A DNA stretch of 64,000 nt, from positions 1,894,001 through 1,958,000 of the forward strand of contig NZ_CP060719.1 of the NCBI RefSeq assembly GCF_014396975.1, in the 5' to 3' direction. Below, one piece after another: positions 3 to 32,213 of the stretch. The translations under genes and the position numbers were made by a program. The DNA comes from Thermomonas carbonis. GTDB lineage: Bacteria; Pseudomonadota; Gammaproteobacteria; Xanthomonadales; Xanthomonadaceae. The notes beneath the pieces were generated by a model that saw only the letters and a program-made list of their open reading frames with translations, was not told the origin of the DNA and ran no database searches. Within the stretch, counting starts at the first letter, position 1. Every line of letters starts with the position of its first letter.

Positions 3-1889
3 TTCGAGCAACGCGGCGTGCTGCTGGCCGAGGCCGGCACCGGCACCGGCAAGACCTTCGCCTACCTCGTGCCCGCGCTGTTGTCCGGGATGAAGACGAT
101 CGTGTCCACCGGCACGCGCGCGCTGCAGGACCAGCTGTATTTCCGCGACCTCCCGCGGGTGCGCGACGCCTTGGGCACAGGCATCAAGAGCGCGTTGCTC
201 AAGGGTCGTTCGAACTACCTGTGCCTGTACCGAATGGAGCAGGCCAAGGGCGATCCGCAGCTGTTCAAGGGCGGGTTTTCCTCGCGCGAACAGGTCTCGC
301 AGTTCCAGCGCGTGGTCGCGTGGAGCGGGCGCACGAAGATGGGCGACCTGGCCGAACTGGAATCGCTGCCGGAAGATTCGCCGCTGCTGGCGCAGGTCAC
401 ATCGACCGCGGACAACTGCCTGGGCACCGACTGCCCGAGGTGGGGCGACTGCTTCGTGGTGCAGGCGCGCCAGCGCGCGCAGACTGCAGACCTGGTCGTC
501 GTCAACCACCACCTGCTGCTGGCCGATCTTGCGCTCAAGCAGGAGGGCTTCGGCGAAATCCTGCCGGGCGCGCAGGCCTTCGTGGTCGACGAGGCCCACC
601 AACTGCCGGAGCTCGCCGCGCAGTTCTTCGGCGAAGGGCTCGGCGCACGGCCTCTGGTCGAGTTGGCGCGCGATGCGCTGGGCGAATGCAAGGAGGTCGC
701 GGGCTCGCTGGCCAGCGTGCAGGAACCCGCGCGCGAGCTGGAACAGGCTGCGCGTGCCTTGCGCGCGAGCATGGACAACCTGCCGGTGCGCGGCACGGCG
801 TGGCGCGCGCTGGACGAGGTCGACATCGAGCCTGCATTCCAGACATTGGCCGCTGCGCTGCAGCGCATGCAGGACACGTTGGAACCGTTGCGCGAGGCCG
901 CGCCGGGATTCGATGCCTGCCACCTGCGTGCGCGCGACCAGCTTGGCCGCCTGCGCCGCTGGCTGGGCGAAAAAGTGGGGTCAGAGTCGCCTTTCGAAAC
1001 GAAAGGCGACTCTGACCCCACTTTTGACGACGAAGCACCACCCGACACCAGCGTGCACTGGTACGAACTCACCCCGCGCGGCTTCCGCCTGCAACGCACG
1101 CCGCTGGACGTATCCGCGCCGTTGCGCCGGCATCGCGAGGAATCGCGCGCGGCCTGGGTGTTCACGTCGGCCACGCTGGCCGTGTCCGGCGGGTTCTCGC
1201 ATATCGCCCAGCGGCTCGGGATCAACGAAGCAGTCGAATTGCTCGAGCCCAGCCCGTTCGACTGGGACCGGCAGGCGCTGTGCTTCCTGCCGCCGCGTCT
1301 GCCCGAACCGGCCTCGCGCGATTACGGCACCGCGCTGATCGCGACCTTGCTGCCGGTGCTGCAGGCGTCGGGCGGGCGCGCGTTCCTGCTGTTCGCCTCG
1401 CACCGCGCGCTGCGCGAGGCCGCCGAGTTGCTGCGCGACGCGCCGTGGCCGTTGTTCGTGCAGGGCAGCGAGCCGCGTCACGTGCTGCTGCAACGGTTCC
1501 GCGAGTCCGGCAACGGCGTGCTGCTGGGTACCGCGAGTTTCCGCGAAGGCGTGGATGTGGCCGGCGATGCGCTGTCGGTGGTCGTCATCGACAAGCTGCC
1601 GTTCGCGGCACCGGACGATCCGGTGTTCGAGGCACGGCTGGACGCGATCCGCCGCGCCGGCGGCAACCCGTTCCGCGACGAACAATTGCCGCAGGCGGTG
1701 ATCGCGCTCAAGCAGGGCGCCGGTCGCCTGATCCGCACCGAAACCGACCGCGGCGTGCTGGTCCTGTGCGATCCGCGCCTGACCCAGAAAAGCTACGGCA
1801 AGGTGTTCATGGATTCGTTGCCGCCGCTGCCGATCACCCGCGAGGTCGGCGACGTGCAGGCGTTCTTCGGGTCACAATCCGGCCCATGA
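3..1889 (+). CDS. yoaA: ATP-dependent DNA helicase, YoaA/DinG family (5' truncated)
   Basis: XPD-like superfamily 2 helicase; in E. coli YoaA acts in DNA repair with a clamp-loader subunit. The reading frame is open from the first bases of the window, so the true start lies upstream and the GTG at 18 is internal. Visible motifs are the Walker A AGTGTGKT at the left edge, the DEAH box VVDEAHQLPE near base 590, a cysteine cluster (C-x4-C-x5-C) around bases 417-450 that fits the family's iron-sulfur ligands, and C-terminal helicase motifs GTASFREGVDVAG and QGAGRLIRT. An in-frame 55-bp palindrome at 971-1025 adds about 18 residues (KVGSESPFETKGDSDPTF). The stop overlaps the tsaB start (ATGA), suggesting translational coupling. 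Confidence 0.93.
   Translation, partial: FEQRGVLLAEAGTGTGKTFAYLVPALLSGMKTIVSTGTRALQDQLYFRDLPRVRDALGTGIKSALLKGRSNYLCLYRMEQAKGDPQLFKGGFSSREQVSQFQRVVAWSGRTKMGDLAELESLPEDSPLLAQVTSTADNCLGTDCPRWGDCFVVQARQRAQTADLVVVNHHLLLADLALKQEGFGEILPGAQAFVVDEAHQLPELAAQFFGEGLGARPLVELARDALGECKEVAGSLASVQEPARELEQAARALRASMDNLPVRGTAWRALDEVDIEPAFQTLAAALQRMQDTLEPLREAAPGFDACHLRARDQLGRLRRWLGEKVGSESPFETKGDSDPTFDDEAPPDTSVHWYELTPRGFRLQRTPLDVSAPLRRHREESRAAWVFTSATLAVSGGFSHIAQRLGINEAVELLEPSPFDWDRQALCFLPPRLPEPASRDYGTALIATLLPVLQASGGRAFLLFASHRALREAAELLRDAPWPLFVQGSEPRHVLLQRFRESGNGVLLGTASFREGVDVAGDALSVVVIDKLPFAAPDDPVFEARLDAIRRAGGNPFRDEQLPQAVIALKQGAGRLIRTETDRGVLVLCDPRLTQKSYGKVFMDSLPPLPITREVGDVQAFFGSQSGP
971..1025. repeat. Perfect palindrome (26-bp arms, 3-nt loop) inside the helicase gene
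   Basis: Bases 971-996 (AAAAGTGGGGTCAGAGTCGC then CTTTCG) are exactly complementary to 1000-1025, with AAA at 997-999 between them. The GGGGTCAGAGTC core resembles repeats often found near REP-associated (RAYT/IS200-like) transposases in Proteobacteria; that link is from memory and no transposase lies in this window. The frame stays open on both strands. No target duplication is obvious. Confidence 0.9.
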
Positions 1890-2620
1890 AACTGCTCGCG
1901 TTCGAAACCGCCACCGAAGCCTGTTCCGTCGCCGTCTATATCGATGGCGAAGTGCGCGAACGCTTCGGGCTGGCGCCGCGCCGGCATGCGGAACTGGCGT
2001 TGCCGTGGGCGGAGGAGATGCTGGCCGAGGCCGGTATCGCCAAGTCGCAGCTCGACGCGATCGCGGTCGGGCGTGGTCCCGGTGCGTTCACTGGTGTGCG
2101 CTTGGCCATTGCCATCGCCCAGGGCATCGCGCTGGCGCTGGACCGGCCGGTGCTGCCGGTGTCCACGCTCGCAGCGCTGGCAATGCGCGCCGCTGTTCCC
2201 CCTCTCCCGCTGGCGGGAGAGGGTCGGGGTGAGGGTGGGCAAAACATCCTCGCCGCGATCGACGCACGCATGGGCGAGATCTACCTGGGGGCGTTCGCGC
2301 GTCGTGGCGATGACATCGTCGCCCTCGCTAGCGAAGTCGTGGTCAAGCCCGATATTGCCAATATTCCTGCAGGTGACGACTGGCGTGGCGTCGGCACCGG
2401 CTTTTCCGCTGCAGATGGTGCGTTGCCCCTGCGCCTGCAATGCAGGCTGGCCACGGTCGATGCCAGCGCCCTGCCGCATGCAGCAGACTTGGCCCGCTTG
2501 GCCGCACTCGCGTTCGCGCGCGGCGAAGCGGTCGCGGCGGAACGCATCGAGCCCGCCTACCTGCGCAACAACGTCGCCCTGACCCTTGCCGAGCAACAGG
2601 CCTTGCGCACCAAAGGTTGA
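1886..2620 (+). CDS. tsaB: tRNA t6A biosynthesis protein TsaB
   Basis: Subunit of the TsaB-TsaD-TsaE complex that makes N6-threonylcarbamoyladenosine at position 37 of ANN-decoding tRNAs; acts in the cytoplasm. The 244-residue protein begins MKLLAFETATEACSVA and carries the family signature GRGPGAFTGVRLAIAIAQG and IDARMGEIY; the C-terminus PAYLRNNVA matches E. coli TsaB. It is slightly longer than the usual 225-235 residues because a GC-rich repeat encodes PPLPLAGEGRGEGG (residues 105-118) in the loop just before the IDARMGE strand. The start overlaps the helicase stop by four bases. Confidence 0.95.
   Translation: MKLLAFETATEACSVAVYIDGEVRERFGLAPRRHAELALPWAEEMLAEAGIAKSQLDAIAVGRGPGAFTGVRLAIAIAQGIALALDRPVLPVSTLAALAMRAAVPPLPLAGEGRGEGGQNILAAIDARMGEIYLGAFARRGDDIVALASEVVVKPDIANIPAGDDWRGVGTGFSAADGALPLRLQCRLATVDASALPHAADLARLAALAFARGEAVAAERIEPAYLRNNVALTLAEQQALRTKG
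2198..2239. repeat. REP-like CCCTCTCCCGC hairpin repeat inside tsaB
   Basis: Bases 2200-2210 (CCCTCTCCCGC) pair with 2213-2223 (GCGGGAGAGGG) around a 2-nt loop, followed by a TCGGGGTGAGGGTG tail. The same CCCTCTCCCG hairpin recurs between ahpC and ahpF at 57888-57910. Elements of this form are, from memory, a dispersed intergenic family in Xanthomonadaceae. Here it is read in frame as PPLPLAGEGRGEGG. Confidence 0.85.
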
Positions 2621-2689
2621 CGGGCGTCGCTTGTCGCCCTTGGCATTCTGGTTATGCTGCAAAGCAGCAGTCCAGAAGTGGGGTGTGGC

Positions 2690-3175
2690 ATGGCAAACAG
2701 GAACTGGGTGTTGGCCGGCATGCTGGTGGCGCTGCCGGCAATCGCCGAAGACGTGGCCTTCGAGGGCCACACGCTGGAGGTGGATGCCAGCCGCGAAGCG
2801 CGTCCGATCATGGGCATGCGCGGCACCCGCTATTCCATCCCGGGATCGGCATCGCAGATCGTCGGCAGGGTCCAGTACTGCGCCGCGCAGCAGCCGGCGG
2901 CGATCACGATCGAATCGGTGGATGCCGAGGCCGGACGGTTGGTGGCGGGAAGTCGCGCCGCCTATCGGCAGAAAGGCCGGCGAAGCGTGCGCGCGCGGAT
3001 GACGGTCGAGACCGGCGAGGGCAATTTCCTGGTCGTCTTCACTGATCTGGCGACGGCATCGGCCGATACCGGCGGCTTTGCACCGCTGATCCAGCAGGAT
3101 GGCGCGGGCTGGGAAAGCGCACTGGAGGCGGTGATCGGCATCGAGCAGCCATTGCTCGACTGCATGTTCCGCTGA
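2690..3175 (+). CDS. Hypothetical exported protein
   Basis: Not recognised. The 161-residue product starts MANRNWVLAGMLVALPAIAE, which looks like a short signal peptide cleaved after the Ala-rich stretch, so a periplasmic location is inferred. The mature part has two cysteines (VQYCAAQ and LLDCMFR at the extreme C-terminus) that could form a disulfide. An upstream in-frame ATG at 2654 would add 12 residues ahead of the signal peptide and is less likely. The gene converges on the TonB-family gene, whose stop lies 20 bases away. No function is proposed. Confidence 0.7.
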   Translation: MANRNWVLAGMLVALPAIAEDVAFEGHTLEVDASREARPIMGMRGTRYSIPGSASQIVGRVQYCAAQQPAAITIESVDAEAGRLVAGSRAAYRQKGRRSVRARMTVETGEGNFLVVFTDLATASADTGGFAPLIQQDGAGWESALEAVIGIEQPLLDCMFR

Positions 3176-3194
3176 GCGGTCTTTCGCCGGGTTT

Positions 3195-4085
3195 CTAACG
3201 GTCGATCAGCTCGCCGCCGGGCAGAAACTGCCAGGTGCGTGTGACGTGCAGCACGTCGGGATCTTCCTGGGTCTTCGGCAGCGGCGAGAACGGCTGCGAC
3301 AGCCTGACGATGCGGCTGGCGGCCTCGTCCAGCATCGGCACGTGGCTGGACTGGACGATGCGGATGCTTTCCACGCTGCCATCGCGGCGCACGCCCACGC
3401 TGATCACCACCAGTCCGCCGATGCGGCGGCGGCGCGCTTCGTCCGGATAGTTGAGGTTGCCGACGCGTTCGACCCGATCCACCCAGCCGCGCAGGTAATC
3501 GGCCCAGGCGTATTCCTTGGTGCTGGCGGAAACGAACTTGCGCTTCGGCCGCTTGGCATATTCCTGCGAGCGCAGCTGGATCTCCGCGGCCAGCCGCGCC
3601 ATTTCGATGTCGCGGTCGATTTTTTCGCGGCCTTGCGGCGCCTGGTTGGCGTCGACCTGCTGCAACGGTTGCGGCATCGGCAGGCTCTGGGTGGCATTCG
3701 CTGAAGCCACCACCCGCGCATCCGGCGGCGGGCTTGGGCTGGGCGATTGCGCGTGCAGCGGACGCGGTGCCAGCCCGTCGACGGGTTGCGGCAGCGGGCC
3801 GGCCTGCGGGGCGGTGGGCCGGCTGCTCTTGTCGTGCTCGCCGCCACCCTGGTTATTGGCCTGGGCCAGGAAGTCCGCCTGCGCCGGGGTCAGCGGCGTC
3901 TGCGTGCGGCTCAGGATCACGTCCAGGGTGGGCAGCATCGGCGCCGCGTCCTCGACCGCGAAGCCGATGCCGAGGATCACCATCGCATGCACCAGCACCG
4001 ACAGCACCAAGGTCGCGCCGAGGCGCTCCGACTCGCCGATGCGGGGCGGCGCAGGCAGCGACGCGGGGGCGGCGGCCGCGCCCAT
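3195..4085 (-). CDS. TonB-family energy transducer-like protein
   Basis: Inner-membrane-anchored periplasmic protein with a C-terminal TonB fold, a class that passes proton-motive-force energy to outer-membrane receptors. An N-terminal hydrophobic segment (GATLVLSVLVHAMVILGIGF, about residues 24-46) is followed by a long Pro/Gln/Ala-rich linker and a C-terminal domain from about residue 195 with NYPDEARRRRIGG and the last strand TRTWQFLPGGELIDR. The ATG shares one base with the gshB stop (TGATG), so coupling to gshB is likely; a GTG one codon upstream is the alternative. No exbB or exbD lies nearby and the receptor partner is unknown. Confidence 0.85.
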   Translation of the reverse strand: MGAAAAPASLPAPPRIGESERLGATLVLSVLVHAMVILGIGFAVEDAAPMLPTLDVILSRTQTPLTPAQADFLAQANNQGGGEHDKSSRPTAPQAGPLPQPVDGLAPRPLHAQSPSPSPPPDARVVASANATQSLPMPQPLQQVDANQAPQGREKIDRDIEMARLAAEIQLRSQEYAKRPKRKFVSASTKEYAWADYLRGWVDRVERVGNLNYPDEARRRRIGGLVVISVGVRRDGSVESIRIVQSSHVPMLDEAASRIVRLSQPFSPLPKTQEDPDVLHVTRTWQFLPGGELIDR

Positions 4086-5047: not shown

Positions 5048-5122
5048 CTGCAGGTCCATGGCGGGCTGCGAAGATGGTAGCAGGCGACGCGCAGCGTCCA
5101 TCGATGTGACGCATTGCGGCGC

Positions 5123-5608: not shown

Positions 5609-5626
5609 CCGGGGGGTAGGGCATCA

Positions 5627-8897: not shown

Positions 8898-8957
8898 ATG
8901 AACAGCACCCACCAGGCAAGCCCCGCGTCGCGGGGCGATAGCGGAGCTTCGCGATGA
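8898..8957 (+). CDS. Possible 19-codon leader ORF ahead of chpA
   Basis: An ATG at 8898 with GAGG upstream opens a frame encoding [19 protein letters not shown]. It ends at a TGA overlapping the chpA ATG (ATGA). A 7-bp hairpin (GCCCCGC / GCGGGGC, 8920-8936) lies within it. This geometry would suit translational coupling or re-initiation for the very long chpA. It may equally be chance, since GC-rich spacers often stay open. Confidence 0.3.
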
Positions 8958-11900
8958 CCACGGCGTTGCGCGATGCCATCGACCATACCGCGCTCGGTTG
9001 GGTGAAGCCCGAGATCGACGAGACCCTGCGCCAGGCGCGGCTCGAGATCGAGGCCTTCGTCGAAAACCCGGCCGATGCTTCCTCCATGCGCGCCTGTGCG
9101 GGTTATCTGCACCAGGTGCAGGGCACCCTGCGCATGCTGGAGTTGCAGGCGCCGGCGATGGTCGCAGGCGAGATGGAACAACTGGCCGGTGCGCTGCTGG
9201 AAGGCGTGCCTGGCAGTCGCGACGACGCCCTTGCGGCGCTGATGCGCGGCGTGGTGCAGTTGCCGGATTATCTGGAACGCCTGCAGGGCGGTCATCGCGA
9301 TATCCCGATCGTGCTGCTTCCGTTGATCAACGACCTGCGCGTGTCGCGCGGTGTGGATGCGTTGCAGCAGGACGCGTTGCCCAGCCTGTTGGTCGAAGCG
9401 ACCGAGGCAGAACTGGAGCATGCGCGCGGCAGCCTGGCCGGACGCAATCGTGCCCTGCTGGACACCGTGTCAGCGGCGCTCAAGGAAGACCTGTTGCGGG
9501 TCAAGGACGCGCTCGACCTGCACCTGCGTGCCGGCGGCGGCAACGTCGCCGAACTGGAGCCGCAGGCGCAAGCCCTGGATCGCATCGGCGAAACCCTGGG
9601 CATGCTCGGCCTGGAAAGTGCGCGTGGCGTGATCCACGAGCAACGCAAGGTGGTGCAGGGCATCGCCGACGGCAGCCGACCGCCGAATGAAGACGACCTG
9701 ATGGAAGTCGCCGGTGCGCTGATCTACATCGAGCATTCGCTGGACGACCAGGTCACCCGCCTCGGCACCGGCGATGCCCCGGGTGATGGCGACGACCAGC
9801 TGGCGCAGGAATCGCGCAAGGTCATGGGCGTGCTGGCACGCGAGGCGGCGGCCAACTTCGCCGAAGTCCGCAATGCCTTCGTCGCCTTCGTCGAAACCGA
9901 CTGGGACCATGCGGTGCTGGACCCGGTGCCGCGCCTGCTCGCCGAAGTCGCCGGCGCGATGCGCATCCTCAACCTGCCGGAACCGGCGGGTTACCTGGAA
10001 GCGCTGCGCCGTTACAGCCATGCTGAATTGCTCGGTCGCAAGCAGGTGCCCGGCGGGCGTCAGCTGGACACCCTGGCCGATGCGCTGGCCGGCATGGAGT
10101 ACTACCTGGAGTCGCTGCGCGATCCGCATGGCCAGCGCCAGGATCTGCTCGACAAGACCCGTATCAGCCTCGAACAGCTGCAGTACTGGCCGTTGCCGGA
10201 TGACGGTGTGGCGACCCTGTCCGAAGCGGTGCCGGCTGAAGTCGCCCCGGTGCTGGAAGCGGTCGTCTTCGAGACACCGCAAGCGCCCGATGCCGCCGAA
10301 AGCTCGGCAGCCACGGTCAGCGTTCAGGCCGACGTGCCTGTGCTGAGCGCGGGCTTCGATGAAGTCGGCGATGAAATCGATGACGAGATCCGCGAAATCT
10401 TCCTCGAGGAATTCGAGGAAGAAATCAGCAACCTCGACGGCCTGTTGACGCCGTGGAAGCGCACGCCCGATGACGGCGAGCTGCTGCGCCCGATCCGCCG
10501 CGTGTTCCACACGCTCAAGGGCAGCGGGCGCCTGGTCGGTGCCAAGACCCTCGGCGAATTCAGCTGGCACGTCGAGAACATGCTCAACCGCGTTCTCGAC
10601 GGCTCGCGCCCGGCCAGCCCGGCCGTGGTCGCCTTCGTCAGCCAGACCCGCGCCGCATTGCCGCAACTGCTCGCCGCGTTGCGTGGCCAAGCCAGTGGCG
10701 TGCTCGACATCGCTTCGATGGAAGCGGTCGCCGACCGCCTGGCCGCCGGCGAAGACGTATTGCTGGATACCGCCGGCAGCGCACCGGTGGCCAAAACGCC
10801 TGGCCGCGCGGCCGAACCCGAAGCCACCGCACCCGCCGCAGACACCGTGGCCGCTCACGTCGACCCCGTGCTGCTGGAGATCCTCGGCTCGGAAGTCGGT
10901 GGGCATCTGGAAACCGTGGACGCCTGGCTGGCGCAGGCGCGTGCCGGCGATGCCAGCGTCAACGATGGCTTGGTGCGCGCGATCCACACCCTCAACGGTG
11001 CTTTCGCGATGACCGAAGTGCCGTCGGTAACTGCGTTCACCGCGCCGGCCGAGGGTTACGTCAAGCGCCTGCTGACCGCCAATGCAGCGGCAGACGCCGA
11101 AGGCGTCGCCACCCTCGGCGAAGTCGCCGACGCGGTGCGCACCACGACGGCCGCGCTGCAGGCCACACCCGCCCAGGTACCGGTGTACGCCGCCCTGGCC
11201 GCGCGCGTCGCCGCCCTGCGCGACACCTTGCCCGAAAGCAGCCTGCCGTTCATCGACGCCACCGCCGAAGCTGCACGCAAGGCAGCGGAGCAGGCCGAGG
11301 CCGCCGAGGCCGAGCGCATCGCTGCCGAACAGGCAGAAGCCGAGCGCCTTGCCGCGGAAGAAGCCGCGCTCGCCGAGGCCAAACGTCTGGAAGCCGAGCG
11401 CCTCGAGAATGAGCGCCTGGAAGCCGAACGCCTGGCCGCGGAAGAAGCCGAAGCGGCGCGCCTGGCCGCCGAACAGGCCGAAGCCGAACGCATCGCCGCC
11501 GAGGAGGCCGCGGCGCGTGCGGAGACCGAGCGCCTCGAAGCCGAACGCCTGGAAGCCGAGCGCATCGCCGCGCTGGAAGCCGAAGCCGCGCGGATTGCTG
11601 CCATCGAGTCCGAAGCCGAGCGTCTTGCCGCACAGGAAGCGGCTCGCCTCGAAGCGGAGCGCCTGGAAGCCGAACGCCTTGCCGCGCTGGAAGCGGCGCG
11701 GATGGAAGCCGAGCGCCTGGAAGCGGAACGTATCGCCGCCGCAGAGGCCGAAGAGGCCCGCCTTGCCGCAGAACGAGCGGAAGCCGAACGCCTGGCCGCG
11801 GAAGAGGCGGCCCGCCTCGAAGCCGAACGCGTGGAAGCGGAGCGGATTGCCGCAGAAGAAGCCGAGGCAGCGCGTGTCGCTGCCGAGCAGGCGGAAGCCG

Positions 11901-14614
11901 AACGCATCGCCGCGGAAGCAGCGGCTCGCGCCGAAGCCGAGCGGCTGGCCGCGGAAGAAGCGGCACGCCTCGAGAATGAGCGCGTGGAAGCCGAGCGCAT
12001 CGCCGCCGAACAGGCAGAAGCGGCCCGCGTCGAAGCGGCGCGTGCGGAAGCCGATCGCCAGGAAGCGGAACGCATCGTGGCGGCCCGCCAGGAAGCGGAT
12101 CGCCAGGAAGCGGCGCGCCTGGCCGAAGCCCGTGCCGAAGCCGCGCGTGTGGAAGCCGAACGTCGTGCCGCCGAAGTCGCTGCCGCGGCCAAGGCCCGCG
12201 AGCAGGCCGCGCTGGCGGCCCTGCTGTCGTCCGCGACCTCGGCCGAGGATCCGGACGAAGCGCTGGACATGGACGGGCTGGACGCCGAACTGGTCGACAT
12301 CTTCGTGGAAGAAGGCGGCGACCTGCTCGATCATTCCGATGGCTTGCTCGCGCAGCTGCGCGACGCGCCGGAAGACCGCGAGGCCATGGTCGGCCTGCAG
12401 CGCGACCTGCACACGCTGAAGGGTGGCGCACGCATGGCCGGCATCATGCCGATCGGCGAGCTGGGCCACGCGATGGAAACCCTGCTCGAAGCCGTGGTGG
12501 CACAGCGCGCCGAGCTCGGCCGCGATGGCGTGCCGCTGCTCGAACGCGGCTTCGACCGCCTGCACGGCATGATCACCCGCGTCGCGGCGCGTCGCGCAGT
12601 CGGCCTGCCGGCCGGCCTGATCGAAGAACTGGACACCCGCGCGGAAGCCCCCATCAAGGCGGTTGCCGAAGCGGTCGACGACGGGCTGATGTTCGTGCCC
12701 GCGCCGGCGCAGAAGATCGAACTCAAGCCGCTGTCCGCGCCGATGGTGCAGGACGGTTTTGGCGAAGACGACGACATCGGCATCCGTGCGCCGCAGGAGC
12801 AGGTCCGCATCCGCGCCGACCTGCTCGATCGTCTGGTGAACTACGCCGGCGAAGTGGCGATCTACCGTTCGCGGCTGGAACAGCAGTTGGCTGCGTTCCG
12901 CGGCACCGCGCAGGAAATGGAGCAGACCAACCTCCGTTTGCGCGACCAGTTGCGCCGCCTCGATTCGGAAACAGAAGCGCAGATCATCGCCCGCTACCAG
13001 CGCGAAGGCGCGGCCGGCAACGAGACCTTCGATCCGCTGGAACTCGACCGCTTCAGCACCCTGCAGCAGCTGTCGCGCGCCCTTGGCGAGTCCGCGGCCG
13101 ACTTGCAGGCGCTGCACGGGTCGATGGAAGACCTGACTCGCCAGTACGAAACCCTGCTGCTGCAGCAGTCGCGGGTGAGTTCGGACCTGCAGGAAGGCCT
13201 CATGCGCACGCGCATGGTGCCGTTCGAGGGCCTGGTACCGCGCCTGCGCCGCGTGATCCGCCAGGCCACCGGCGAGACCGGCAAGCAGGCGCAGTTGAAG
13301 CTGGACGGCGCGCAAGGCGAACTCGACCGCAGCGTGCTGGAGCGCATGACCGCGCCGCTGGAGCACATGCTCCGCAACGCGATTGCGCATGGTCTGGAAA
13401 CGCCGGACGCACGCCGCAAGGCAGGCAAGGGCGACGAAGGCACGATCCGCGTCGCGGTTCGCCGCGAAGGGTCGGAAGTGGTGCTGCAGGTCGGCGACGA
13501 CGGTGCCGGCCTGGATCGCGCCGCGATCCGCGCCCGCGCGATCGACCGCGGCCTGATCAAGCCCGACGCGATCCTGTCGGACGGCGACCTCGACGTCCTG
13601 ATTCTGGAACCTGGCTTCTCCACAGCCGAAACGGTCAGCCGCCTGGCTGGCCGTGGCGTGGGCATGGACGTGGTGGCCAGCGAAGTGCGCCAGCTCGGCG
13701 GCACGCTGGACATCACCTCGCGTCCGGGCGAAGGCACCACCTTCACCCTGCGCCTGCCGCAGACGCTGGCGGTCACCCAGGCGGTGTTCGTCAAGATCGG
13801 CGATACCGAATACGCGGTGCCGATCGCCTCGGTGCGCGGCGTGGGCCGGATCAGCCGCGAGGACATGGCGAAGGACGACGCGCTCTACCGCTACGGCGGC
13901 GAAGACTACGCGCTGCATGATCTCGGTGGCCTGGTCGGCACCACGTCGGTGAAGGCGGAAGGGCAGTTGCAGGTGCCGTTGTTGCTGGTTCGCTCCGGCG
14001 AGCTGCGCGCCGCGGTCGCGATCGACCAGGTGGTCGGCAATCGCGAAATCGTGGTCAAGGCCGGTGGTCCGCAGCTGGCCTCGGTGCCGGGTATCTTCGG
14101 CGCGACGATCATGGGCGACGGCCGCGTGGTGGTCATCCTCGACATCGCCCCGCTGGTCCGCCGCTTCGCCGCGATGCCGCGTGATGCCGCGCCGGTCGAA
14201 CAAGTGGTCGAACACCGTCGGGTGCCGCTGGTCATGGTGGTCGACGACTCGATCACGATGCGCAAGGTCACCGGCCGCGTGCTGGAGCGCCACAACTTCG
14301 AGGTCGCCACGGCGAAGGACGGCATCGACGCACTCGAGCGGATGGCCGACATCATCCCGGACCTGATGCTGCTCGACATCGAAATGCCGCGCATGGACGG
14401 CTACGAGCTGGCGACCGCGATGAAGGCGGATCCGCGCATGCGCGACGTGCCGATCATCATGATCACCTCGCGTACCGGCGACAAACATCGCCAGCGCGCG
14501 ATGGACCTGGGCGTGGAGCGCTACCTCGGCAAGCCGTACCAGGAAGTCGAGCTGATGCGCAACGTGTTCGAGCTGCTCAAGCTGGAGCGCGCCGGTGACG
14601 GTCAGCTGCAATGA
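8954..14614 (+). CDS. chpA: Hybrid CheA-type histidine kinase ChpA (PilL) with receiver domain
   Basis: Central kinase of the Pil-Chp twitching pathway, 1886 residues. In order: an N-terminal helical FimL/Hpt-like region with no canonical phospho-His; an Hpt domain with His519 (HTLKGSGR); a weaker Hpt-like domain with His678 (HTLNGAF); an Ala/Glu/Arg coiled-coil stretch at about residues 770-1088; a third Hpt with His1153 (HTLKGGARM); a dimerisation domain; a GHKL ATPase ([24 protein letters not shown]); a CheW domain; and a receiver with Asp1808 ([11 protein letters not shown]). Pseudomonas ChpA is about 2,470 residues with more Hpt modules, so this is a reduced set with a long flexible spacer. 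The stop overlaps the next gene. Confidence 0.96.
11262..12215 (+). repeat. Degenerate coding repeat (Ala/Glu/Arg coiled coil) in chpA
   Basis: About 950 bases of imperfect short repeats built from GCCGAAGCCGAACGCCTG-like units, encoding variations on [11 protein letters not shown] and [11 protein letters not shown]. The product is an almost uninterrupted charged helix of about 315 residues between the second and third Hpt domains. The DNA repetition should make it prone to length changes by slippage or recombination. Confidence 0.85.
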
Positions 14615-18821: not shown

Positions 18822-19602
18822 AACCCTGCGCGACGCGGTCATCGCACTCGCACGCGCCGCCGCCGCCGAGATCCTGGCGGTTTACGAGAGTCCTTTCGCC
18901 ATCGAGCACAAGGGCGACCGCTCGCCGCTGACCGCGGCCGACCTCGCCTCGCACCGCTGCATCGTGGCCGGCCTGCAGGCGCTGACGCCGCACATCCCGG
19001 TGCTGTCGGAGGAATCGAAGGACCTCGACATTGCCGCGCGCCGCGAATGGACGACGTTCTGGCTGGTCGATCCGCTCGACGGCACCCGCGAGTTCATCAA
19101 GCGCAATGGCGAGTTCACCGTCAACATCGCCTTGGTCGAACACGGCGTGGCGACGTGGGGCGTGATCCAGCAGCCGGTGACCGGCGCGCTCTGGCACGGC
19201 GGCGAAACGGTTGGCGCGTTCATCCGCGAGGGCGATGCCGGCGACGTGGCGGTCCATGCGCGCATTCCGGCATCGAAGCCGCTCCGCATCGCCGCAAGCC
19301 GATCGCATCGCGACGAACGCACGCAGGCGGTGATCGACGCATTGCCCGGCAGCGACGTCGTCGGCTGCGGGTCGTCGCTGAAGTTCTGCCGGATCGCCGA
19401 TGGCGGCATCGACCTGTATCCGCGCTTCGGTCCCACCAGCGAGTGGGACACCGCCGCCGGCCAGGCGATCCTGGAAGGCGCGGGTGGTGCAGTCCTCGAT
19501 CCGCGCGGCCGCCCGTTCCGCTACAACCAGCGCGACACATTGCTCAATGGCGATTTCATCGCACTTGGCGATCTGTCCCTGCGCGACAGCTTGCCCGGAT
19601 GA
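18808..19602 (+). CDS. cysQ: 3'(2'),5'-bisphosphate nucleotidase CysQ
   Basis: Removes 3'-phosphoadenosine 5'-phosphate formed during sulfate assimilation and related sulfotransfer, releasing AMP. The 264-residue member of the inositol-monophosphatase fold shows the metal-binding motifs PVLSEESKDLD, WLVDPLDGTREFI and FGPTSEWDTAAGQAIL. It overlaps nudE at its start and mazG at its stop, so the three form a coupled operon of nucleotide house-cleaning enzymes. Confidence 0.95.
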   Translation: MPIDETLRDAVIALARAAAAEILAVYESPFAIEHKGDRSPLTAADLASHRCIVAGLQALTPHIPVLSEESKDLDIAARREWTTFWLVDPLDGTREFIKRNGEFTVNIALVEHGVATWGVIQQPVTGALWHGGETVGAFIREGDAGDVAVHARIPASKPLRIAASRSHRDERTQAVIDALPGSDVVGCGSSLKFCRIADGGIDLYPRFGPTSEWDTAAGQAILEGAGGAVLDPRGRPFRYNQRDTLLNGDFIALGDLSLRDSLPG

Positions 19603-20480
19603 GTGATCCACGCCAGATCGAGTCGCTGCTGGCGATCATGGCGACCCTGCGCAATCCCGATGGCGGGTGCCCGTGGGATCTGGCGCAGGATTTCTCGACG
19701 ATTGCGCCGTACACGATAGAAGAGGCTTACGAAGTCGCCGATGCGATCAACCGCGGTGACCTGGGCGACCTGAAAGACGAACTCGGCGACCTGCTGCTGC
19801 AGGTGGTCTTCCACGCGCAGATGGCGAGTGAGCAGGGCGCGTTCGAATTCGGCGACGTGGTCGCGGCGATCTGCGACAAGATGACCCGCCGGCATCCGCA
19901 TGTATTTGATGCACATGGATGTGCGAATGCCGCGGGAGGCAGGATGCCGGGAGCGGCGGCTGACGAAGCGCGCAAGGAAAACGCCGACGCGCAACTGCAG
20001 CACTGGGAAGACCTCAAGCGCGCCGAGCGCGCAGCGAAGGGCGATGCCGATGCATCGGCACTGGCCGGGATCTCGCGCGGCCTGCCGGAATGGCAGCGTG
20101 CGGTGAAGTTGCAGCACAAGGCGGCCAAGGTCGGTTTCGATTGGCCGGATGCCGAACCCGTGCTGGAAAAACTGCATGAGGAGATCGAGGAAGTCCGTGC
20201 GGAATTTGCGGCGGTGGCGGCATGCCCGGATGATGTCGCCGCGCGCGACCGACTTGAGGACGAACTCGGCGACATCCTGTTCGTCTGCGCCAACCTCGCG
20301 CGGCACGCCAAGGTGGATGTCGGCACGGCGCTGCGCAGGGCCAACCTCAAATTCGAGCGGCGTTTCCGCGCGATGGAAGCGCTTGCCGCGGCGGATGGCG
20401 GCCTTGCCGGTCAATCGCTGGAAGCGCAGGATCGCTACTGGGTTCGCGCCAAGGCGGCGGAGAAGGGAGCGGCATCATGA
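19599..20480 (+). CDS. mazG: Nucleoside triphosphate pyrophosphohydrolase MazG
   Basis: Hydrolyses (d)NTPs, including aberrant ones, to monophosphates and pyrophosphate. The 293-residue protein has the tandem MazG architecture: CPWDLAQDFSTIAPYTIEEA, EADAI-type helix VADAINRGDLGDLKDELGDLL, RRHPHVF in the first half and GFDWPDAEPVLEKLHEEIEE with EDELGDILFVCANLARH in the second. An 18-residue stretch between HPHVF and DEARKENAD (residues 104-121) is absent from family members as I recall them and coincides with an ATCCATG-type repeat. The start overlaps the cysQ stop (ATGA). Confidence 0.95.
   Translation: MSDPRQIESLLAIMATLRNPDGGCPWDLAQDFSTIAPYTIEEAYEVADAINRGDLGDLKDELGDLLLQVVFHAQMASEQGAFEFGDVVAAICDKMTRRHPHVFDAHGCANAAGGRMPGAAADEARKENADAQLQHWEDLKRAERAAKGDADASALAGISRGLPEWQRAVKLQHKAAKVGFDWPDAEPVLEKLHEEIEEVRAEFAAVAACPDDVAARDRLEDELGDILFVCANLARHAKVDVGTALRRANLKFERRFRAMEALAAADGGLAGQSLEAQDRYWVRAKAAEKGAAS
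19908..19961. repeat. ATCCATG-type repeat inserted in frame in mazG
   Basis: A 54-base stretch containing the palindrome GCACAT-GG-ATGTGC (19911-19924), then GCCGCGGGAGGCAGGATGCC. On the reverse strand its core reads ACATCCATGT, the same core as the intergenic palindrome at 20868-20889. It is translated as DAHGCANAAGGRMPGAAA, exactly 18 codons, interrupting the conserved HVF-DEAR segment. Confidence 0.8.
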
Positions 20481-20794: not shown

Positions 20795-20818
20795 TCCCTG
20801 CGTTACGCGTATCCACGC

Positions 20819-20912
20819 GGCTGGGACTCACTCCGGGACACGCCGTGAATACGTCCATGTAGGCTCATCGGCGACATCCATGTCGCCGAAGGTCCCGGAG
20901 CAAATCCCAGCC
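20819..20912. repeat. Composite intergenic inverted repeat with ATCCATG core
   Basis: Outer arms at 20819-20839 and 20892-20912 match at 18 of 21 positions. Inside, TCGGCGACAT-CC-ATGTCGCCGA forms a perfect 10-bp-arm hairpin at 20868-20889, preceded 23 bases earlier by a second TCCATGT unit (20854). It lies between the convergent DUF962 and DUF486 genes. It could fold into a long stem-loop and act as a bidirectional terminator, but it has no T-tract. Confidence 0.85.
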
Positions 20913-20953
20913 ACACAGACACGCTTCTGACGCCGCTGCTTCGTTGTCGAACA

Positions 20954-27280: not shown

Positions 27281-27313
27281 TCCACGCGCACCGCGCGTCA
27301 AGACGAGAATCGA

Positions 27314-28063
27314 ATGGACCTGAGTTTCCTGGCGTCACCCGATGCATGGCTCACCCTGGTGACCCTGAGCGCACTGGAAATCGTGCTCGGCATCGACAAC
27401 CTGGTGTTCATCTCGATCGCGGTGGCGCGCCTGCCGGAAGCGCAGCGCCCGCTGGCGCGCAAGATCGGCATCGCCGTGGCCTGCATCACCCGGATCCTGC
27501 TGCTGGTGATGCTCGCTTTCCTGGCGACGATGGAGCAGGACCTGTTCACCCTGTTCGGCATGGGCATCTCGATCCGCGACATCGTGCTGATCGTCGGCGG
27601 CGCCTTCCTGCTGGTGAAGGGCACGCTGGAAATCCGCGATCTTATCGGCGGCGGCGAGGACGAGGATCCGCGCACCACCAAGTCGTCCTCGGTGTTCTGG
27701 GTGGTGATCGCGCAGATCGCGGTGATCGACATCGTGTTCTCGCTGGATTCGGTGATCACCGCAGTCGGCATCGCCCAGCACATCCCGATCATGGTCTTCG
27801 CGATCCTGCTGGCGGTGGCGATCATGCTGCTGGCGGCCAATCCGCTGGGCAAGTTCATCGACGACAACCCAACCGTGAAGATGCTGGCGCTGGCCTTCAT
27901 CCTGCTGGTCGGCGCGGTGCTGATCCTGGATGGCCTGGGCACCCACGTGCCGAAGCCGTACATCTACTTCGCGATGGCGTTCTCGGTGATGGTCGAGTGG
28001 CTGAACCTGCTGATGCGCCGCAAGGCCGCAGCGCATCACGTGCCCGGTGCCGGCGAATGGTGA
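27314..28063 (+). CDS. TerC-family integral membrane protein
   Basis: The 249-residue multi-helix protein of the TerC/YkoY family, whose members export manganese or metallate exported metalloproteins, some with tellurite-resistance phenotypes. The family motifs are EIVLGIDNLVFISIAVARLP near the N-terminus and the repeat IDIVFSLDSVITAVGIA in the second half, each with the conserved acidic residues within helices. It follows dgkA by 33 bases. No Mn-responsive (yybP-ykoY) riboswitch is visible in that short gap. Confidence 0.93.
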   Translation: MDLSFLASPDAWLTLVTLSALEIVLGIDNLVFISIAVARLPEAQRPLARKIGIAVACITRILLLVMLAFLATMEQDLFTLFGMGISIRDIVLIVGGAFLLVKGTLEIRDLIGGGEDEDPRTTKSSSVFWVVIAQIAVIDIVFSLDSVITAVGIAQHIPIMVFAILLAVAIMLLAANPLGKFIDDNPTVKMLALAFILLVGAVLILDGLGTHVPKPYIYFAMAFSVMVEWLNLLMRRKAAAHHVPGAGEW

Positions 28064-28146
28064 GGATCGAGGTTTCCACGTCGGCTTAACCCCATTTGCC
28101 CGTCACTAGCCGTTACACCGTGTCCTCGTCGTTCCAGGAGCTTCCC

Positions 28147-28857
28147 ATGCGTGGTTTCTCGCTCGTCCGCGGCGCGCTTCTCGCGCTGGTCGTGGTCCTG
28201 CTCAGTGGTTGCGGCTACAACCAGATCCAGTCCAAGGACGAGGCGGCCAAGGCCGGCTGGTCGGAAGTGCTCAACCAGTACAAGCGCCGCGCCGACCTGA
28301 TCCCGAACCTGGTCGCCACCGTGAAGGGCTACGCCGCGCACGAAGCGCAGGTGCTGACCGCGGTGACCGAGGCGCGCGCCAAGGTCGGCCAGATCAACGT
28401 GAATGCCGATGACGCAGCATCGCTTGCGCAGTACCAGGCGGCACAGGGCGAACTCAGCCAGGCGCTCGGTCGGTTGATGATGGTGAGCGAGGCGTACCCG
28501 AACCTGAAGGCCGACCAGCAGTTCATCGGCCTGCAGACCCAGCTGGAAGGCACCGAGAACCGCGTCACCGTCGCCCGCGGCCGCTACATCCAGCTGGTGC
28601 AGGACTACAACACCTACATCCGCCAGTTCCCGGTCAACCTGACCGCGATGATCTTCGGCTACAAGCCGAAGCCGAACTTCACCGTGGAGAACGAAGCGCA
28701 GATCCAGGACGCGCCAGCGGTGGATTTCGGCGCGCCGCCGCCCCCGCCGGTCGCCCCGCCAGCAACCGAAGTGCCGCCGGGCGTCGTCAATCCGCCGCAG
28801 CCCGCATCGCCACCCGTGCAGGGTGGAAATGCCCCGCAGGAAGCACCGACGTCCTGA
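28147..28857 (+). CDS. LemA-family lipoprotein
   Basis: The 236-residue protein has a lipoprotein signal (LLALVVVLLSGCGYN) and a LemA helical-bundle domain (DEAAKAGWSEVLNQYKRRAD, LIPNLVATVKGYAAHE, LQTQLEGTENRVTVARGRYI, YIRQFPVNLTAMIFGYKPKP). The last 45 residues are Pro-rich and probably disordered. LemA genes commonly sit before TPM-domain genes, as here; the trio is thought to act at the envelope, but its biochemical role is unsettled. Confidence 0.92.
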   Translation: MRGFSLVRGALLALVVVLLSGCGYNQIQSKDEAAKAGWSEVLNQYKRRADLIPNLVATVKGYAAHEAQVLTAVTEARAKVGQINVNADDAASLAQYQAAQGELSQALGRLMMVSEAYPNLKADQQFIGLQTQLEGTENRVTVARGRYIQLVQDYNTYIRQFPVNLTAMIFGYKPKPNFTVENEAQIQDAPAVDFGAPPPPPVAPPATEVPPGVVNPPQPASPPVQGGNAPQEAPTS

Positions 28858-28873
28858 ACCCGGGACGCTGGCG

Positions 28874-29814
28874 ATGTCGCCGATGAACGCTTGGTTGTCC
28901 GACCGACGCATCGCAATGGCGGTGTCCGTGCGGTCGTGGGCCGCATCGTTGATGCTGTTGCTTGCGCTGTGCGTATTGCCGGCATGGGCGCAATCTCCAT
29001 CGAAGATCCCCGCCTTCGATTCGCCGGTGGTCGACACCACCGGCACGCTGGATGCCGCCACCCGCCGGCAGCTTGAGCAACAGGCACTGGCCCTGCAGCA
29101 ACGCAAGGGCAGCCAACTGCAGGTGCTGATGATCCCCAGCACCCAGCCCGAGGACATCGAGTCCTACGCGGTGCGCGCATTCGAGTCGTTCAAGCTTGGC
29201 CGCGAGGGCGTGGACGATGGCGTATTGCTGGTCGTCGCCAAGGACGACCGCAAGGTGCGCATCGAGGTCGGCTACGGGCTGGAAGGCGCGATCCCCGACA
29301 TCGCCGCCGGTCGGGTGATCCAGGAATACATGGTGCCGAAATTCCGCCAGAACGATTACGCCGGCGGTGTGGTGGATGCCACTGCGCAACTGGTCAGGCT
29401 GATCGATGGCGAGCCGTTGCCAGAGCCGGTGGCGGACAACCCGACTGGCGAGGAGCGTGGCGGCACCTGGGTGTTTGCGCTGTTTGTCGCTTTCGTGGTC
29501 GGTCAGTTCGCGCGGGCGTTCTTCGGGCGCCTGCCGGCGGGTATCCGTGCGCTGTTCGGTGGCGGCGCCAGTGGTGCGGGGGCTTGGCTGGTGTCGTCGG
29601 CCGTGCTGGTCGGCGGGATCGGTGCGGTGATCGGGTTTTTCCTCGGCCTGGCCTCGGGGGCGGTGGAGGCGGCGGTGGCGGTCGTTATGCCCGCCATCAC
29701 GGTTGGGGTGGATATTCGGGCGGTGGTGGTGGTTGGGGCGGTGGAAGCTCCGGCGGCGGTTGGTCGGGTGGCGGCGGCATGTCTGGAGGCGGTGGCGCCT
29801 CGGGAGGGTGGTGA
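28874..29814 (+). CDS. TPM-domain (YgcG-like) protein with apparent -1 frameshift in a G5 tract
   Basis: Exported TPM-domain protein: signal peptide (LMLLLALCVLPAWA), TPM domain (FDSPVVDTTGTLDAATRRQL, LVVAKDDRKVRIEVGYGLEG, GRVIQEYMVPKFRQNDYAGG), then two membrane segments. After GFFLGLAS the frame from the start codon loses family character. One extra G in the GGGGG run at 29656-29660 restores the expected Gly-rich tail (RYARHHGWGGYSGGGGGWGG to GGGGASGGW) and a stop at 29812-29814 that touches the next gene's ATG. Without it the frame runs on across the whole next gene into lgt. Sequencing error, slippage or real mutation cannot be told apart by eye. Alternative starts are 28883 and 28916. 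Confidence 0.8.
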
Positions 29815-30317
29815 TGGTCGGCATCCTCAAGCGACTGTTCACCCATCTGTTCACCGCCGATGCGCGAGGCCGTTTCCCGCCGGCGACGATGGAACGCATC
29901 GCCGCGGCGATCGACATCGGCGAGACCTGCCACAGCGGCGAACTCTGCTTCGCGGTGGAAACATCGCTGCACTGGCGCGATGTGTTGCGCGGCATGCCCG
30001 CCCGTGCCCGCGCCGAGGACGCCTTCGCCAGGCTGCGGGTCTGGGACACTGCGGCCAACAACGGCGTGCTGATCTACCTGTTGCTGGCAGAAAAACGCAT
30101 CGAGATCGTCGCCGATCGCGGCCTCGCGCCATTCGTGAGCGCCGAGCAATGGCGCGGCGTCTGCGTGCTGATGGAAGAGCGCCTGCGCGCCGGCGAATTC
30201 GCCGATGGCGTGGTCGCCGGGATCGAGGCTGCCGGAGACCTGCTGGCCGTGCATTTCCCGCAGGAACCCGGCATGCCGGACGAAGACGAACTGCCGGATC
30301 AGCCCGTTTTCCTCTGA
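29814..30317 (+). CDS. TPM-domain protein (second copy, cytoplasmic type)
   Basis: The 167-residue TPM-fold protein lacks a signal peptide. Recognisable segments are HLFTADARGRFPPATMERIA, ETCHSGELCFAVETSL, ARAEDAFARLRVWDTAANNG, VLIYLLLAEKRIEIVADRGL and a Glu/Asp-rich C-terminus. It starts exactly at the corrected stop of the first TPM gene (ATGA overlap), supporting a lemA-tpm-tpm operon. The paired exported plus soluble TPM arrangement is common in Proteobacteria. Function unknown. Confidence 0.88.
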   Translation: MVGILKRLFTHLFTADARGRFPPATMERIAAAIDIGETCHSGELCFAVETSLHWRDVLRGMPARARAEDAFARLRVWDTAANNGVLIYLLLAEKRIEIVADRGLAPFVSAEQWRGVCVLMEERLRAGEFADGVVAGIEAAGDLLAVHFPQEPGMPDEDELPDQPVFL

Positions 30318-30459
30318 TCCCCGCACCACATGCTTGGACAATCAATCGCGATGGCGAGACCGTCGGGCGACTCGCGCAGCGGTATTTCGAGCCGCGTAGC
30401 GAACGCCCGGCGGTAGGCGACATCGCAGCGAAAACCCGCTTCTGCGGCACAATAGGCGC

Positions 30460-31383
30460 ATGCCTTACTTACACCAGATCGACCCCATCGCCCTCGACCT
30501 CGGGACATGGAACCTGCCGCTGCTGGGCAGCGTGCACCCGCAAGTCCACTGGTACGGCGTGATGTACTTGCTGGGCTTCCTCGTGGCCTGGTGGCTGGGC
30601 CGCCGGCGCATCCGCGCCGGTCGCCTGCCGGGCGTGGACGAGAACGGCTTCGGCGACCTGATGTTCTACGCGATGCTCGGCGTGGTGCTGGGCGGACGCA
30701 TCGGCTACATCCTGTTCTACGACTTCGCCAGCTTTGCCGCCAGTCCGATGATGGTCTTCCGGGTCTGGGAAGGCGGGATGAGCTTCCACGGGGGGCTGCT
30801 GGGCGTGCTCGCCGCGGGTGCATGGTGGTCGCGCCGGCAACGCCTTCATTTCTTCGACACCGTGGATTTCGTCGCCCCGCTGGTGCCCGCCGGGCTTGGC
30901 TTTGGCCGTGTGGGCAACTGGATCGGCGGCGAGCTGTGGGGCAAGCCGACGCAGGGCACTGCGTTCGATGGCTGGGGCGTGGTGTTTCCGCGCTCGCTGC
31001 CGGAACCGTTCGCCTCGATGGATGCGGCCACGCTGAAGCAGCAGTTCGATGCCGGCATCATCGACACCTTCGCCCGCCATCCCTCGCAGCTGTACCAGGC
31101 CACGCTGGAAGGTTTGGTCATGTTCGCCGTGCTGGTCTGGTATTCGCGCAAGCCGCGTCCGCGCTATGCGGTTTCCGGCGTGTTTGCGCTGCTGTATGGA
31201 TGCTTCCGCATCCTGGTCGAATTCGTGCGTGAGCCGGATGCGCAGCTGGAATACCTGGCCTTCGGCTGGCTGACGATGGGCCAGTTGCTGAGCCTGCCGT
31301 TGATCCTGCTGGGCCTGTTCCTGTGCTGGAAGTCGCACACCTCACCCACGTTGCAACCACAACCCGTGGATGCGGCGAAGTGA
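30460..31383 (+). CDS. lgt: Prolipoprotein diacylglyceryl transferase Lgt
   Basis: Inner-membrane enzyme attaching diacylglycerol from phosphatidylglycerol to the lipobox cysteine of prolipoproteins, the first step of lipoprotein maturation. The 307-residue protein has several membrane helices, the essential His motif [13 protein letters not shown], the Lgt signature [18 protein letters not shown] and the C-terminal [13 protein letters not shown]. Several lipoproteins that would be substrates are encoded nearby. lgt is followed by thyA 11 bases downstream, a common bacterial pairing. Confidence 0.96.
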
Positions 31384-31394
31384 CGCGCTGAGCC

Positions 31395-32213
31395 ATGCGC
31401 CAATACCTCGACTTGCTCCGCCACGTGCTGGAACACGGCACCGAGAAAGCGGATCGCACCGGCACCGGCACGCGCAGCGTGTTCGGCTGGCAGATGCGCT
31501 TCGACTTGAACCAAGGCTTCCCGCTGGTCACCACCAAGAAACTGCACCTGCGCGCGATCATCCACGAGCTGCTGTGGTTCCTGCAGGGCGACACCAACAT
31601 CGCCTACCTGAAGGACAACAAGGTCTCGATCTGGGACGAGTGGGCGGACGCGAATGGCGAGCTGGGCCCGGTCTACGGCAAGCAGTGGCGCAGTTGGGAA
31701 GGCGCGGACGGCAAGACGGTCGACCAGATCGCCTGGCTGGTCGACGAGATCAAGCGCAATCCGGATTCGCGCCGCCTGATCGTCAGTGCATGGAACGTGG
31801 CTGACCTGTCGAAGATGGCGCTGATGCCCTGCCACTCCCTGTTCCAGTTCTACGTCGCCCCTTCGACAGGCTCAGGGCAGGCTCCCGGCAAGCTCAGCTG
31901 CCAGTTGTACCAGCGCAGCGGCGACATCTTCCTCGGTGTGCCGTTCAACATCGCCAGTTATGCGCTGCTCACCCACATGGTGGCGCAGGTGTGCGGGCTG
32001 GGCGTGGGAGATTTCGTCCACACCCTGGGCGACGCGCATCTGTATTCGAATCATTTCGACCAGGCGCGCGAACAGTTGTCGCGCAGCCCGCGGCCGCTGC
32101 CCACGCTGGCGCTCAATCCCGAAGTGCGCGACATCTTCGGTTTCCGCTTCGAGGACATCGCCATCGAAGGCTACGATCCTTTGCCGGCGATCAAGGCGCC
32201 GGTCGCGGTCTAG
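31395..32213 (+). CDS. thyA: Thymidylate synthase ThyA with 9-residue loop insertion
   Basis: Converts dUMP to dTMP with methylenetetrahydrofolate. The 272-residue protein has the nucleophile Cys146 ([11 protein letters not shown]), the phosphate-binding [22 protein letters not shown] and the C-terminal IKAPVAV; numbering to Cys146 equals E. coli. Where E. coli has Ala155-Asp156-Gly157 at a beta-turn, this protein reads [11 protein letters not shown], eight residues longer. The extra codons coincide with a dispersed-type repeat. With folA nearby it forms a folate/dTMP cluster. Confidence 0.96.
31860..31886. repeat. TTCGACAGGCTCAGGG repeat inserted in frame in thyA
   Basis: Twenty-seven bases starting CCTTCGACAGGCTCAGGG are read as PSTGSGQAP. 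The CCCTTCGACAGGCTCAGGG element is, from memory, a frequent intergenic repeat in several GC-rich Proteobacteria. This is the only copy noticed in the window. Boundaries are deduced from comparison with the E. coli ThyA protein and could be off by one codon. Confidence 0.75.

Follow-up and report, generated by a model that had tools for sequence, protein, structure and literature searches.

The window and its four in-frame repeats

The window analysed here, a stretch of 64,000 nt from the Thermomonas carbonis genome (bases 1,894,001-1,958,000 of one contig of 3,456,638 bases), contains four conserved genes, yoaA, tsaB, mazG and thyA, that hold frame-keeping repeats of four kinds, families A to D. 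In window coordinates, the features are:

1..1889, + strand: gene of the DNA repair helicase YoaA, start upstream of the window (NCBIfam NF053712 equivalog, 826.6 bits, cut-off 680)
971..1025, + strand: family A (type I) perfect palindrome in YoaA, reading EKVGSESPFETKGDSDPTF, between the DEAD and Helicase_C_2 matches
1886..2620, + strand: tsaB (NCBIfam TIGR03725 equivalog, 186.8 bits, cut-off 69.3)
about 2195..2239, + strand: family C (CCCTCTCCC/GGGAGAGGG) insert in tsaB, reading PPLPLAGEGRGEGG, in a loop between helix and strand
19602..20480 (start possibly 19599), + strand: mazG (NCBIfam NF007113, 318.7 bits, cut-off 208; Pfam MazG)
about 19917..19957, + strand: family D insert in mazG, reading GCANAAGGRMPGAA, directly after the first MazG domain match
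31395..32213, + strand: thyA (NCBIfam NF002497, 481.8 bits, cut-off 327)
31860..31886, + strand: family B insert in thyA, reading PSTGSGQAP, in a turn between two strands

The presence of in-frame repeats of four types in these four genes had been proposed from the letters of the window, and it is confirmed. The companion claim, that two of the types also lie between genes of the window, does not hold: a scan at set mismatches finds each of A, B, C and D in full only once in the window, and the intergenic copies of families A and C lie elsewhere in the genome, with a partial copy of family D at the called start of an open reading frame (ORF). An Rfam gathering search of the whole window gives no match.

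The YoaA element is a 55-nt palindrome in which two 26-bp arms, 100% complementary, enclose a 3-nt loop; it lies in frame, and as RNA it is predicted to fold at -54 kcal/mol (z -11 against shuffles). Family C also folds better than shuffles (z -2.3), and families B and D fold no better than shuffled sequence. The view that all four inserts occupy surface loops is supported, though not proven: the YoaA palindrome is interdomain; the MazG insert (residues 106-119) follows the first Pfam MazG match (29-102); and the TsaB insert (residues 104-118, repeat peptide PPLPLAGEGRGEG) and the ThyA insert (residues 156-164; 27 nt replacing one codon, a net gain of 24 nt) are modelled by AlphaFold2 as coil between regular elements, with predicted local distance difference test scores (pLDDT) partly below 50 in models whose mean pLDDT is 77 and 73, respectively.

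Copies across the genome

At least 12 in-frame repeat copies reside in 11 genes of T. carbonis, so the four in the window are not the only coding ones. Family A comprises 31 half-sites genome-wide at up to three mismatches (0 in the reversed control), which form 12 palindromic pairs and leave 7 half-sites unpaired. Seven pairs lie in ORFs, those of YoaA, PriA, HrpA (two pairs), IcmF, FPP synthase and a DUF3106 protein, and five are intergenic. The HrpA, IcmF and YoaA elements sit between Pfam domains, and that of PriA borders the helicase domain match, either immediately preceding it or falling at its start. The DUF3106 palindrome (L119:4463-4529), of type I, is nested within a further, outer pair of these half-sites, which looks like one element inserted into another.

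Family B, searched as a 17-base pattern with at most one mismatch, occurs at three places in the genome (control 0), all within called ORFs (ThyA, BioH and BioC) and in one shared reading frame; the copy in BioH, some 9 codons away from the start as called, counts as non-coding by the caller used for the family B and C counts given below. A 16-base version of the pattern at three mismatches proved mostly noise (42/51 vs 22/26) and was abandoned, and a one-mismatch place at 1817825, in a putative TolB-like ORF where it reads LSLSK, was set aside as coincidental. Of family C, TsaB holds the single coding copy, and five more lie outside genes according to the caller; the reversed-pattern control of this family gives 0 genome-wide. 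Outside MazG, family D has one partial copy (84% over 42 nt, E 5e-4), which sits at the called start of an ORF and is probably upstream of the true start. The in-frame inserts of FPP synthase, DUF3106, BioC and BioH were counted from T. carbonis alone.

The same linkers in other species

Insert sites were compared in 30 aligned genomes, and patterns were searched in 25 genomes of the genus (G numbers denote genomes, T. carbonis being G000, and L numbers loci). Among named relatives of PriA, YoaA and ThyA, the best matches come mostly from Thermomonas. Across the genus the palindromes fall into three types with a GGKGTCAG core, and the reversed control of the genus-wide pattern gives 0 matches in all 25 genomes. 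They recur in shared linkers of YoaA, HrpA (three sites), PriA, an Lhr-like helicase and IcmF (two sites). The YoaA linker, surveyed at 30 loci of which two were not readable, holds type I in G000, type II in G010, type III in G002, G024, G023, G018 and G020, another variant in G021, and decayed forms in G019, G011 and G012; it is free of a palindrome in G014, G001, G013, G016 and others. Its loop measures 3 nt in the type I element of G000 vs about 39 nt in type III. For YoaA, ThyA and TsaB we took the best 120 of thousands of protein-search matches each and dropped rows that text patterns could not read (5, 2 and 28 of 120, respectively): 48 of the 115 readable YoaA relatives bear one of the types, as labelled by a rough text pattern that gets some of them wrong, and the 13 listed proteins at least 89% identical to YoaA of G000 divide into 2 with type I, 5 with type III and 6 with none. 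Repeat-free sites, which the original prediction had named as a comparison worth making, are therefore found in close relatives.

HrpA was compared in 14 genomes, 12 of which cover site 1. That site holds type I in G000, type II in G010, G006 and G017, a type I variant in G024 and a half-element in G003; linkers are short in G001 and G002, and G001 has no palindrome. Sister species thus disagree at this site, with type II in G010 and nothing in G001, and the next relative, G000, has type I. Site 2 holds type I in G000 and G001 and type III in G024 and G002 (decayed in G008 and G020), with none in G010, G012 and G006; at site 3, G006 and G018 have a variant of type I. The IcmF, PriA and Lhr-like linkers follow a similar pattern, the Lhr-like linker having type III in G002 and type II in its sister G024. 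Set against the protein tree, types differ even between the sisters G002 and G024, and between G001 and G010. For PriA, only 2 of 71 readable linkers (80 fetched; L125 and L120) contain inverted arms of at least 14 bases; the 71 come from named genomes, mostly of other genera, and no clean empty site was found. Because other genera have linkers of similar length, the PriA element may be a replacement and not an addition.

Other inserts were met at these sites. At HrpA site 1, G012 and G019 (L230, L231) share a long, nearly identical insert, PARAGGQLVRR..EGAGERT, which would be either another repeat family or a transferred stretch. At site 2, G003, G017 and G016 (L232, L225, L229) carry the repeat-like inserts PHPNPPPQAGEG, MDSRFRGSDGQ and DARFRGNDEQ, quite unlike the types I and III held there by other species. 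Finally, L131, on a contig titled as a Crenarchaeota metagenome-assembled genome, encodes a PriA that shares 49% identity with the proteobacterial query; the contig is probably mis-binned.

Type, coding placement and reading frame

Palindrome type tracks the genome and tracks the site weakly. The type set consists of the pairs from the genus-wide pattern search together with the YoaA and hrpA loci. In shuffles that ignore relatedness, type agreement between elements of the same genome (78 of 104 pairs) exceeds the shuffled mean of 28.9, with 0 of 5000 shuffles reaching it, and coding elements alone also agree more often than when shuffled (28 of 42; mean 10.1, fraction 0.0002); elements at the same site agree in 20 of 58 pairs (mean 13.9, fraction 0.051), and each of the five sites held by at least three genomes shows at least two types. 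The linker is thus shared and its content local.

Coding status was assigned by an ORF caller based on codon log-odds trained on window genes, used with two slightly different threshold sets; a rerun of both sets on the palindromes and on families B and C gave identical coding counts. By this caller 26 of 37 listed palindromic pairs are coding (G003 and G005 left out; the borderline elements G018 C20 and G024 C3:138262 kept as non-coding), vs 4 of 30 family B loci and 3 of 30 family C loci (7/60 together, fetched from 44 and 32 listed places, respectively); Fisher's test gives 5e-9, with orthologous copies that are not independent. Family B was found in 9 of the 25 genus genomes (G001, G010 and G012 not among them) and family C in 13. 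The repeats differ in behaviour: the superfamily of the YoaA palindrome, which is linked to transposases, is mostly intragenic, and B and C are mainly intergenic in the genus.

Coding placement and frame bias, for which the original prediction had proposed a genome-wide scan, are real. A scan of the type set, which missed 2 of the 12 G000 pairs, yielded 50 palindromes, 33 coding (spread over 7 genes) and 17 non-coding. In 33 of 33 coding palindromes the 3' arm is read in one frame, giving DSDP, EPDP or VPDT, and the other open frame (TLTP) goes unused; the 5' arm is distributed over its three frames as 22/11/0. Arm spacing modulo 3, taken between fixed landmarks, divides the coding elements 22/11/0 and the non-coding ones 3/6/8 (third class, p 4.5e-5). 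Element length modulo 3 was discarded as a measure because the arm ends float. For types I and III, the 3'-arm frame in use is more hydrophilic than the unused open frame.

An inverted loop and probably converted arms

The YoaA elements of the sister species G002 (G002:C1:952627-952723, L047) and G024 (G024:C3:82934-83016, L049) differ in the orientation of their 39-nt loop, which matches at 35 of 39 positions as the reverse complement vs 23 of 41 aligned columns directly, within a flanking gene that is 89-95% identical; the loops of G002 and G023 match at 36 of 39. Both versions are in frame and read DGVCLASQKTLPG in one sister and GTVFCDAKPTSS in the other. The element either entered in both orientations or flipped in place, and by either route one protein stretch was exchanged for another. 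At IcmF site 2, the loops of G021/G002 and of G023 are alike by eye, and both arms have changed symmetrically.

Relatives of the ThyA, TsaB and MazG inserts

Three of the four window inserts are not family-wide, a finding at odds with ancient, universal features. The 24-nt net insertion in ThyA belongs to G000 alone among 30 aligned proteins. Across the 118 readable ThyA relatives, from the best 120 listed, 115 have a six-residue turn at this place, 2 have the insert with the junction seen in G000, and P0140 carries this repeat with other junctions, probably a second, separate insertion to judge by those junctions. A TsaB loop with a family-C-like peptide was recognised by eye in 13 of 92 readable relatives (best 120 listed), in more than one reading; a 98% relative of G000 is among them. 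The family D insert of MazG is common to G000, G012, G016 and G008 (4 of 30 aligned genomes) and absent from G010 and G001, and linkers of in-between length occur in G013, G015 and G009. It is the weakest case, the oldest-looking of the four and the least certain.

Y1 transposases in the genus

Y1 genes are present in 18 of the 25 genus genomes. In a protein tree of the REP-associated tyrosine transposases (RAYTs; REP, repetitive extragenic palindrome), drawn without support values, the clades of types I, II and III match the type of the flanking repeat. Repeats of the same type lie on both sides of 8 of 21 Y1 genes examined, some of the 21 being at contig ends; the eight are G010, G017 and G006b (type II), G002, G021 and G012b (type III), and G016 and G003a (type I). 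T. carbonis itself has a single Y1 gene, whose clade is distinct from the type I transposases and whose upstream repeat is different. Its protein carries HVHLL and YIELNPV, the HUH and catalytic Tyr motifs, and scores 58.4 bits against Pfam Y1_Tnp (cut-off 23) and 71.3 bits against the NCBIfam model REP_Tyr_transpos NF047646 (cut-off 80); the best match in a PDB sequence search with the RAYT, at E 0.46, is not significant. The very active machinery that the original prediction had envisaged is not borne out in G000 by this one gene of another clade, and its suggestion to look for RAYT genes succeeds for the genus and not for a cognate in G000.

Eleven genomes have a typed YoaA palindrome, and 5 of them (G010, G002, G021, G011 and G012) also encode a transposase from the clade that matches it. 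The statement that the YoaA palindrome of each genome matches its own RAYT is too strong and is ruled out by the RAYT tree; elements would either outlive their transposase or arrive with it and stay. At 392 nt past related Y1 genes (L009, L203) lies a type I half-site in G000 and a type III half-site in G024.

Other repeats of the window

An ORF of 1886 aa at 8954-14614 contains about 900 bases of degenerate tandem repeats (about 11300-12190), with units of 15, 30 and more bases that code EAERL-like segments. Long imperfect hairpins of other sequence, with 33-nt arms, lie at 61138-61260 and 20807-20924 (88% and 76% complementary, respectively) and are possible further repeat families.

Origin and maintenance of the inserts

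We posit, with a probability of roughly 0.64, that transposase-seeded palindromes repeatedly enter tolerant linkers and that selection keeps certain frames. Elements of about 46-97 nt, two inverted GGKGTCAG terminal repeats around a loop, would be spread by Y1 (HUH) transposases of the RAYT kind or of the terminal inverted repeat-associated kind (TIRYT), landing within genes and between them. Insertions would survive where a linker or turn of an otherwise conserved protein receives them, and in certain frames only (GSES..DSDP, GSGS..EPDP and VSGT..VPDT), hydrophilic for types I and III but not for type II. With survival limited in this way, the same linkers would be colonised repeatedly by whichever type is spreading in the lineage; the ThyA, TsaB and MazG inserts would have passed the same filter with other repeat families. 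The anatomy of the elements, their in-frame placement, the repeat-free sites, the link of type to genome, the match of transposase clade to repeat type and the frame bias are all shown here; we infer that the palindromes are mobilised by the Y1 proteins, and that the inserts are translated and close to neutral. It seems that one set of loops in core proteins is altered time and again by mobile DNA.

Several points weigh against this reading. G000 is without a type I, that is cognate, transposase, and it is one of four of the 11 genomes with a typed YoaA palindrome that lack a matching one (with G024, G019 and G020; the remaining two are G018 and G023). Families B, C and D are not accounted for by these transposases, and a mover for them was not found. 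No target-site duplication was seen, although no systematic search was made, and several inserts replace host linker bases instead of purely adding to them. In type II, the frame in use has no hydrophilic advantage over the open frame that goes unused. Because inheritance accounts for some of the copies at shared sites, the tests make these look more independent than they are. Lastly, the like loops and symmetric arm differences at IcmF site 2 point to arm conversion in place.

That last point leads to the strongest competitor, one ancient insertion per linker followed by concerted evolution, in which arms are rewritten in place, by gene conversion from other copies or by template-switch correction between arms, and type drifts to the one common in the genome. 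In-place arm conversion probably accounts for at least one case (IcmF site 2, G021 and G023) and may explain part of the remaining cases too; the identical position of the Lhr-like elements in G002 and G024, and the half-sites at one offset past the related RAYTs, type I in G000 and type III in G024, fit the same account. As a general explanation it is nonetheless unlikely, if worth taking seriously, in view of palindrome-free linkers among close relatives, loop lengths and sequences that differ by type at one site (YoaA), a YoaA loop that is inverted between sister species, and unrelated families at HrpA site 2. A more speculative reading, to which we give little weight, regards protein linkers as the normal home of the element. 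It would persist in those of helicases and mutases, change type by replacement or arm conversion and flip its loop, and in this way slowly produce diversity in linker peptides. There may even be feedback, since several of the host proteins are helicases, for which the hairpin could be a substrate.

The inserts could instead be adaptive or regulatory, a stable hairpin sensing or tuning the helicase or a linker peptide altering its activity. Helicases are 4 of the 7 palindrome-hit genes (the Lhr-like name being our own reading of the sequence), an excess with P 1.7e-7 to 8e-5 under assumed helicase numbers and weights; the YoaA RNA fold is very stable; and a like bias to replication and repair genes is described by Di Nocera et al. 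2013 (PMC3733652). We find this account improbable all the same, given the patchy presence of the inserts among close relatives and non-helicase hosts such as IcmF and FPP synthase, multidomain proteins simply offering linkers. The idea that these are ordinary old lineage features or variable linkers that look repetitive by chance, for which the sharing of MazG family D by four species, the intermediate linkers of G013, G015 and G009 and the unremarkable folding of D and B could be cited, is barely credible beside perfect 26-bp arms, zero control matches, the same repeats elsewhere in the genome and the near-universal six-residue turn of ThyA; it is refuted for A, B and C and could in part still apply to D.

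Palindromic repeats of this kind are extragenic by name. Transposase-seeded insertion would make this a transposase-linked family living mainly in genes, in frame and in the same core-helicase linkers across a genus. It amounts to an experiment, run and replicated by nature, in the turning of mobile DNA into protein, with many known inserts and repeat-free sites in near relatives. Two questions become open to testing: whether loops created by repeats are neutral or under selection, and which properties render a linker permissive.

Relation to known systems

REP doublets forming hairpins (REPINs) consist of inverted units that form one hairpin and are linked to a Y1 transposase. RAYT-linked REPs of this build are described by Nunvar 2010 (PMC2817692). 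Their head, GT(A/G)G, is absent on inspection from types I-III, which begin (G/A)AAA..GGKGTCAG, and unlike them the palindromes described here are mostly intragenic. In Nematomorpha mitochondria (PMC6649704), perfect inverted repeats lie in coding genes and both arms encode conserved residues, whereas the arms studied here encode a linker that relatives lack.

The original prediction had likened the inserts to Rickettsia palindromic elements (RPEs), as a lineage phenomenon of protein-embedded repeats, and the comparison is supported. According to a review (PMC2229807), RPEs lie in frame within conserved proteins, and an insert-bearing Gmk is translated and active; the palindromic repeats of G000 are likewise in frame within conserved proteins. 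Sequence and host are different, the RPE-type CGTC tag was not seen at the ends of types I-III on inspection, and the genus has, unlike the RPE system, a transposase family with matching repeat types.

The closest precedents come from Di Nocera et al. 2013. It describes GTAG and CGTC REPs that lie within ORFs, many of them in genes for replication and repair and perhaps in linkers or loops, and different REPs at about one recB site in X. campestris vs X. oryzae; most REPs are intergenic there. Palindromes inside ORFs, and in replication and repair genes, are common to both systems, but here the majority of pairs is coding and types I-III are without a GTAG or CGTC tag. The same paper describes TIRYT Y1 transposases flanked by inverted repeats with the motif GGGGWSAS, which also occur as dimers; the intragenic elements that it lists in the part consulted are the GTAG and CGTC repeats. 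The motif is fitted by GGGGTCAG in types I and III, and GGTGTCAG of type II is off by one base. As with TIRYTs, inverted repeat copies flank Y1 genes in the genus; unlike them, G000 is without a transposase of its own type. Type-by-genome turnover, frame phasing and loop inversion, all seen here, were not met in the consulted part of that paper, and turnover of type by genome at shared protein linkers was not reported in the titles and abstract openings searched, which covered few subscription journals. Intragenic in-frame repeats are thus already known; what is new is a family that is mainly intragenic, genome-specific at shared sites and frame-phased, with one loop inverted.

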